Shown: positions 1 to 991 of the stretch, piece by piece
How positions within the stretch are numbered: the first letter of the stretch is position 1
How the letters are laid out: each line of letters begins with the position of its first letter
DNA from: Metabacillus litoralis
GTDB taxonomy: Bacteria; Bacillota; Bacilli; Bacillales; Bacillaceae
Direction: 5' to 3'
Assembly (NCBI RefSeq): GCF_007994985.1
Contig: NZ_VOQF01000018.1
Coordinates: forward strand, 1 to 64,000
DNA length: 64,000 nucleotides
Program-made: the position numbers and the translations under genes
The notes under the pieces: generated by a model
The model's input: only the letters and a program-made list of their open reading frames with translations
The model's database searches: none
Told to the model about the DNA's origin: nothing

Positions 1-22
1 GTGAGAGTAGGACGTCGCCAAG
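1..22 (+). rRNA. rrf: 5S rRNA, 3' end only (cut by window edge)
   Basis: The first 22 bases match the 3' terminus of Bacillus 5S rRNA (ending gacgtcgccaag). The same 22 bases end two truncated 5S copies further right, so this fragment may belong either to an intact 5S of an rrn operon to the left or to another truncated copy. An rrn operon directly upstream of ctsR is the arrangement known in B. subtilis, which favours a real operon end. Confidence 0.75.
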
Positions 23-33
23 TAAAGAGTGGG

Positions 34-64
34 AAAGATCAGTAGAGATACTGGTCTTTTTTTT
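34..64 (+). terminator. Rho-independent terminator after 5S, copy 1
   Basis: aaagatcagt pairs with actggtcttt (one G-U pair) around the short loop agagat, followed by a run of T. This is the expected terminator of the rrn operon. Confidence 0.8.
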
Positions 65-300
65 GTGGAGAAAAAGGTAAAAGGTAAAAAATAGAGTCAA
101 TGTTCTTTACATTATATTGAATATATCGAAGATATGTATGTAAGAGGTAGAGACTAAAAAGTACTACTAGCCTGAGGCTTGGGAGCAGCAAGAAGGTCAA
201 GGAAGCGCAGTGAATGAAGACCGGAATGTGCGTAGTTGGCGCATGAGGATCTGAATGAACAAGCTGACGCGGAGATTCGCCGCTTATCGCAAGCCGAGGT

Positions 301-374
301 CCGAACGCGGAAGTTAAGCTCCAGCGCCGATGGTAGTTGGGGGTTTCCCCCTGTGAGAGTAGGACGTCGCCAAG
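301..374 (+). pseudogene. Truncated 5S rRNA copy 1 (3' ~74 nt)
   Basis: From ccgaacgcggaagttaag to gacgtcgccaag this follows the 3' two-thirds of Bacillus 5S rRNA, including the ttgggggtttccccct hairpin region. The 5' ~40 nt that would form helix I with the 3' end are missing and replaced by unrelated sequence. It therefore cannot fold as a normal 5S and is probably non-functional as an rRNA. Confidence 0.8.
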
Positions 375-385
375 TAAAGAGTGGA

Positions 386-415
386 AAAGATCAGTAGAGA
401 TACTGGTCTTTTTTT
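386..415 (+). terminator. Rho-independent terminator, copy 2
   Basis: Same stem and loop as the terminator at 34-64, placed identically after truncated 5S copy 1 and followed by seven T. Confidence 0.75.
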
Positions 416-644
416 GTGGAGAAAAAGGTAAAAAAATAGAGTCAATGTTCTTACATTATATTTAATATATCGAAGATATGTATGTAAGAGGTAGAGACTA
501 AAAAGTACTACTAGCCTGAGGCTTGGGAGCAGCAAGAAGGTCAAGGAAGCGCAGCGAATGAAGACCGGAATGTGCGTATTTGGCACCTGAGGATCTGAAT
601 GAACAAGCTGACGCGGAGATTCGCCGCTTATCGCAAGCCGAGAT

Positions 645-718
645 CCGAACGCGGAAGTTAAGCTCTAGCGCCGATGGTAGTTGGGGGTTTCCCCCTGTGA
701 GAGAAGGACGTCGCCAAG
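645..718 (+). pseudogene. Truncated 5S rRNA copy 2 (3' ~74 nt)
   Basis: A second copy of the same truncated 5S segment, 344 bp after the first, with single-base changes (agctct for agctcc, gagaag for gagtag). It has the same missing 5' part and the same left neighbour sequence, so the truncation came before the duplication. Confidence 0.8.
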
Positions 719-729
719 TAAAGAGTGGA

Positions 730-759
730 AAAGATCAGTAGAGATACTGGTCTTTTTTT
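730..759 (+). terminator. Rho-independent terminator, copy 3
   Basis: Third copy of the same stem, loop and T-run, after truncated 5S copy 2. Similarity between the repeat units stops just after it. Confidence 0.75.
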
Positions 760-991
760 GTGCTTAAAAAAGACCAAGAGTATCATAGTAATGATTAAGC
801 TAGAACTAGATATGTATTTAAATGTCAAGCTAGCGATGTACAATTTCAATCGTTTATGAATGTACAAAAATTAAGCAACAGCTTCTTATTCTAAGTAATA
901 TTTAATTCTGAAAGTAGACCCACCAATATTTACGACTGTTGAGTGGTATAGAATACAATCTAAATTTACATTTGCTAATTTATTTTTCCTC

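Follow-up and report, generated by a model that had tools for sequence, protein, structure and literature searches.

MITEs are small non-autonomous insertion elements, and rRNA intervening sequences accompany rRNA genes as hairpin elements bounded by a stem. Both are brought to mind by an array found at the start of the window, which is the whole analysed stretch of 64,000 nucleotides from Metabacillus litoralis. Each unit of this array carries a block that is likewise a stem-bounded hairpin, but the block differs from the intervening sequences by lying in spacers and operon tails and not inside mature rRNA. Its homologues in other genera resemble MITEs in being short, non-coding and dispersed, and in having inverted ends and duplicated targets. 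The form found in rrn tails, on the other hand, lacks terminal inverted repeats other than its own P1 stem; it shows a strand bias and is inherited by position. In one genus the duplicated target is a whole terminator hairpin. A third known component is 5S rRNA (RF00001), since the 3' part of each unit corresponds to the portion of 5S that runs from loop C through the 3' end, and lacks the 5' half.

The nearest named thing is Bacillaceae-1 RNA (RF01690), a candidate structured RNA of Bacillaceae that was described from rrn spacers and dispersed repeats (Weinberg et al., 2010; PMC2864571). It adjoins the present element in several loci, but it is a different family; it differs in sequence and structure (67 positions), and its covariance model matches the neighbours of the element and not the element itself. 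Nor does any other family in Rfam 15 match the element, either at the gathering score or at E ≤1 in targeted scans. In one genome (G042) the element and a Bacillaceae-1-like RNA sequence are found with the same outer arms (GTTCAAAAAG/CTTTTTGAAC) in dispersed repeats. No description of the unit or of the tail module was found in the open-access literature; it may have been described elsewhere.

The array occupies positions 1-760 and consists of two full units and one partial unit. Members of the repeat family start at 1-82, 353 and 697, giving spacings of 352 and 344 nt, and the units are 97% identical; as direct repeats, 107-406 and 451-750 match over 300 nt at this identity. The features are as follows.

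1-23, forward strand: 3' end of a 5S gene, identified by repeat comparison; the contig begins here, and an intact and a truncated source cannot be told apart
31-64, forward strand: rrn-type intrinsic terminator, copy 1, a hairpin and T-run found by folding
65-164, forward strand: AT-rich spacer of unit 1, which recurs in unit 2 and on contig C26 of the same genome
168-301, forward strand: structured RNA element, copy 1 (115.6 bits with covariance model R1)
301-375, forward strand: 5S rRNA 3' part, copy 1, beginning in loop C (CCGAACGCGG) and without the 5' half
383-415, forward strand: rrn-type terminator, copy 2, found by folding
416-508, forward strand: AT-rich spacer of unit 2, identified by repeat comparison
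512-645, forward strand: structured RNA element, copy 2 (110.9 bits with R1)
645-719, forward strand: 5S rRNA 3' part, copy 2 (sub-threshold Infernal match to 5S, 27.5 or 32.8 bits)
727-759, forward strand: rrn-type terminator, copy 3, found by folding
1099-1200, forward strand: degenerate fourth unit, identified by matches at 1099-1156 and 1160-1193 and by folding

The two 5S parts are 75 nt long and share their 3' end with positions 1-23. With Infernal they score 32.8 and 27.5 bits, which is under the gathering cut-off of 38 bits, and neither gives a full-length match to RF00001, the 5' half being absent. Each unit closes with a stable hairpin and a T-run, and thus with an intrinsic terminator as judged by folding; a simple terminator scan raised no flag at these positions. 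In the fourth unit the 5' arm of the element is joined to a copy of the terminator, the interior having been deleted. Just before it, at 989-1092, lies a 52-bp direct repeat, the reverse complement of which is found in tandem on contigs C32 and C26, adjoining rrn tails.

Contig C10, one of the 75 contigs of the draft assembly, begins with position 1 of the window. The assembly therefore breaks off at an rrn repeat on the left, and the units are counted only from there. The context can be read from contig C26 of the same genome, where an intact 5S with its terminator is followed by spacer, block, truncated 5S and terminator, and then by another spacer and a broken block; this identifies the array as the tail of an rrn operon. 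Contig C13 begins with a unit too. Further copies of the element in this genome include two at tRNA-Phe sites and one in a 23S-5S spacer. A divergent 5S copy (58 bits), possibly a decaying 5S gene, is found beside a tRNA cluster on contig C56 (41088-41202).

The GC-rich block of each unit (168-301 and 512-645) is a structured RNA element of about 130 nt which forms a single imperfect hairpin. When 16 diverse copies were aligned without the 5S part, 19 of the 31 pairs in the hairpin were compensatory and 96% of the cells were paired. Changes on both sides of a pair numbered 82, compared with 23 ± 4 in shuffled alignments, and every measure gave 0 of 500 in the shuffles. When the pairing partners were slid, both-side changes fell to at most 22 and the signal was destroyed. 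The same structure was obtained by de novo folding of 18 copies outside the model, some of them from beyond the class, and in these independent copies 23 of 29 pairs were compensatory. By the measure of compensatory changes above controls the block is thus a structured non-coding RNA. The internal loops AAGCAAG, GACGAAGAGAUUCGCCGC and ACCGGA/UGAGGA are also conserved, which is added evidence for constraint at the RNA level. Open reading frames of 53 amino acids at 236-397 and 580-741 raised the question of a protein-coding block, but the covariation and the indels fit RNA. A plasmid origin was discarded as no match was found in the plasmid collection, and so was a phage origin, the matches in the phage collection being confined to the 5S part of the query.

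Of 299 genomes sampled from the order, 127 contain the element according to model R1, representing 63 of 117 genera. In the phylum sample it is found in 23 of 299 genomes; outside the order the element is thin. Homologues of the block are found in many genera. In six complete genomes of the same genus there are 103 copies, most of them in rRNA or tRNA operons. Operon tails contain 46 and the 16S-23S spacer position 16; another 13 precede an intact 5S gene by exactly 8 nt, and 12 are located 1.5-6 kb 3' of a 5S gene. All of the copies within 20 kb of a 5S gene (92/92) are on the operon strand, and some of the remaining distant copies lie directly before tRNA-Phe or 23S. Upstream of 23S the element is also found in records of Cytobacillus and Sporosarcina globispora, and before tRNA-Asp in Geomicrobium; elsewhere it is a dispersed repeat. 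The element is a conserved, covarying RNA hairpin family that lies in sense orientation in stable-RNA operons. Two other placements were noted: an intergenic locus upstream of the same gene in four species of the genus, and a position immediately ahead of a T-box antiterminator (AGGGTGGAACCACG), seen in Metabacillus fastidiosus (locus L154, 2186-2320) and Cytobacillus citreus (locus L112, 3722-3851).

A preliminary description of the window, made from its sequence alone, had reported two near-identical units and a partial third, each with a 5S remnant and a terminator, and the repeat identity, the spacings and the folds bear this out. It took the block to be "non-ribosomal GC-rich" DNA, a label that the covariation overturns, as the block is an order-wide structured RNA element; what that reading missed is a covarying RNA found before 23S, 5S and tRNA genes and dispersed across Bacillota. 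It had also proposed looking for the block in other rrn operons and in relatives, and the block was indeed found in 19 of the 20 same-genus genomes searched. Its proviso that the array would be ordinary if every rrn operon were followed by this block does not apply, since among the listed 5S genes of three complete genomes just 5/15, 8/15 and 6/12 have a tail unit.

In complete genomes the order is 5S, terminator and then the series block, 5S 3' part and terminator, repeated one to three times per operon. In one genome of another family the number is four. Element, truncated 5S and terminator are found together in at least nine families, so that a faulty assembly and an isolated accident can both be dismissed. 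The junction usually lies in loop C of 5S (CCGAACACGG), while in Rossellomorea and in genome G014 it lies further 3' (loop A/helix V). The end of the element, GCCGA, resembles GCCGAAC of loop C, which is possibly microhomology at the junction. In a 16S-23S spacer of Anaerobacillus arseniciselenatis (locus L144, reverse complement, 1682-1990), the element is joined to a second copy of the 16S 3' end, approximately its last 200 nt. This arrangement was considered as a parallel and excluded as evidence, since it is near a scaffold end and the similar locus L184 contains an N, so that misassembly is possible.

The tail elements are grouped by position into lineages. On a tree that rests on a short alignment and has many open forks, 50 tail elements need 6 label changes, compared with 34.1 after shuffling (0 of 500 shuffles), and the starred branches force at least two changes. 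The units of the window fall within a 98% clade of tail elements, apart from the copies leading 23S in the same genus. The 5S parts follow another pattern: in nearly all loci where a full-length chimera accompanies an intact 5S, they are 95-100% identical to the 5S of their own genome, while the mean identity to 5S of other genomes is 81-92%. P. cavernae is an exception, with 85% identity to its own 5S. A tree that tracks position, combined with 5S parts that match the host's own 5S, agrees with inheritance at the rrn tail accompanied by gene conversion.

The element family has been mobile. Weaker homologues (33-39 bits) are found in a related genus (G025, G290 and G268, with genomes of 3.3-4.0 Mb), and 18 of 20 such copies are flanked by direct repeats, here at least 10 nt, consisting of 10-26 nt of the local terminator hairpin; cross-locus controls gave 1 of 380. 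At one locus the predicted empty site is continuous in G290 (480/480 bases), while the site is occupied in G025 with a 24-bp duplication of the hairpin and in G268 with a 22-bp one. When an autonomous partner was sought, the search yielded only left-end matches. These homologues hence display both target-site duplication and an empty site, as expected for a MITE-like element. In the same three genomes the short elements are found beside intrinsic terminators of which the whole hairpin (approximately 20-26 bp) has been duplicated. In other genera the element is found between the inverted ends GTTCAAAAAG/CTTTTTGAAC with apparent short target repeats. The window copies are flanked by a repeat made up of the 5S 3' part and the terminator, which might be a counterpart of these target duplications. 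By analogy with the mobile homologues, the rrn-tail form may have arisen from an insertion of this kind, the repeated target being much longer there.

Together these observations suggest, with a probability of about 0.62, that the array is an old rrn-tail module that was multiplied by unequal recombination and that carries a conserved, once-mobile RNA element. The anatomy is the part that can be held with near certainty: following an intact 5S and its terminator, the operon tail is built of modules, each consisting of AT-rich spacer, structured RNA element, 5S 3' part and rrn terminator. To start this, a mobile form of the element may have landed at the 3' end of an rrn operon and duplicated its target, the 5S 3' part and the terminator; alternatively, a template switch at the hairpin might have joined the element to the middle of 5S. 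An origin by one of these two routes has about an even chance of being right. The duplicated target in the mobile relatives is the terminator hairpin only, and not the approximately 115 nt of 5S and terminator, which makes the insertion route an analogy, and those relatives score only 33-39 bits. The module may have had more than one origin, as the 5S truncation points differ among lineages.

Once formed, the module would have been inherited in the rrn tails of Bacillales and multiplied by unequal recombination between the 5S/terminator repeats, while gene conversion with intact 5S would keep its 5S and terminator parts current. That such recombination expands and shrinks the array is very probable. 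The view of the preliminary description that a single chimera formed first and was then duplicated as a unit is supported, and recombination between rrn operons, which it suggested, is the likely multiplier. The element itself would owe its retention to an action in the transcript, where it most plausibly serves stable-RNA precursors as a binding or processing structure, with the 5S half as a passenger. Such a function is favoured by the strand bias, the fixed spacing and the conserved loops, and we hold it tentatively, at a little under even odds.

The most serious competitor treats the element as a selfish, MITE-like repeat, and the array as neutral debris of its insertion and of rrn recombination, with no role at all. 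In its favour are the mobile homologues with their target duplications and empty site, the copies that lie dispersed in other genera and end in terminal inverted repeats, the decayed fourth unit of the window and the eroded 5S parts in some lineages. Pure debris would not be expected to lie on one strand in 92 of 92 cases, to keep the 8-nt spacing to 5S in 13 of 13, to form lineages by position or to conserve its internal loops, and a wholly neutral array is thus conceivable but rather doubtful. That the units act as serial rrn terminators, as first proposed, is improbable. A strong hairpin and T-run is kept in every unit, also in relatives, so that serial stops are possible, but this property is not distinctive; a tail unit is missing from many operons of the same genomes, and conservation is strongest in the element, which is also found before 23S, 5S and tRNA with no terminator after it.

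Still less credible is expression of the element-5S chimera as a half-5S decoy or small RNA that binds the 5S-binding proteins. The 5S 3' part does retain the helix IV/V hairpin and is homogenised, but gene conversion alone explains the identity, the retained part varies by lineage and some copies are degenerate. A simple promoter scan moreover found no promoter-like site within the array, which makes a separate small RNA unlikely. An assembly artefact, which the preliminary description had considered and which the position at a contig edge of a 75-contig draft could suggest, is refuted for practical purposes by one to three units per operon in complete same-genus genomes of one to four contigs and by the same arrays in other families.

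The old rrn-tail module with its conserved RNA element might also be part of something wider. The element could be a Bacillota-wide, once-mobile RNA that can insert where transcripts end, duplicating the terminator, and that has been domesticated in stable-RNA precursors, where it would sit at a fixed distance before 23S, 5S and tRNA-Phe, bind or recruit a maturation factor, and be packaged with half a 5S into amplifiable rrn-tail modules. Taken as a whole this is unlikely, if not negligibly so.

An RNA family that is absent from Rfam, supported by covariation and present in about 40% of the Bacillales genomes sampled, often with several to dozens of copies each, would add a new component to the known anatomy of rRNA operons. 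Since the element has a fixed place before 23S, 5S and tRNA-Phe, a role in stable-RNA maturation can be tested directly. Through the mobile copies, which duplicate terminator hairpins, one gets a rare view of how a mobile non-coding element possibly joins rRNA operons. For rrn recombination and gene conversion, the half-5S modules offer a natural study system.
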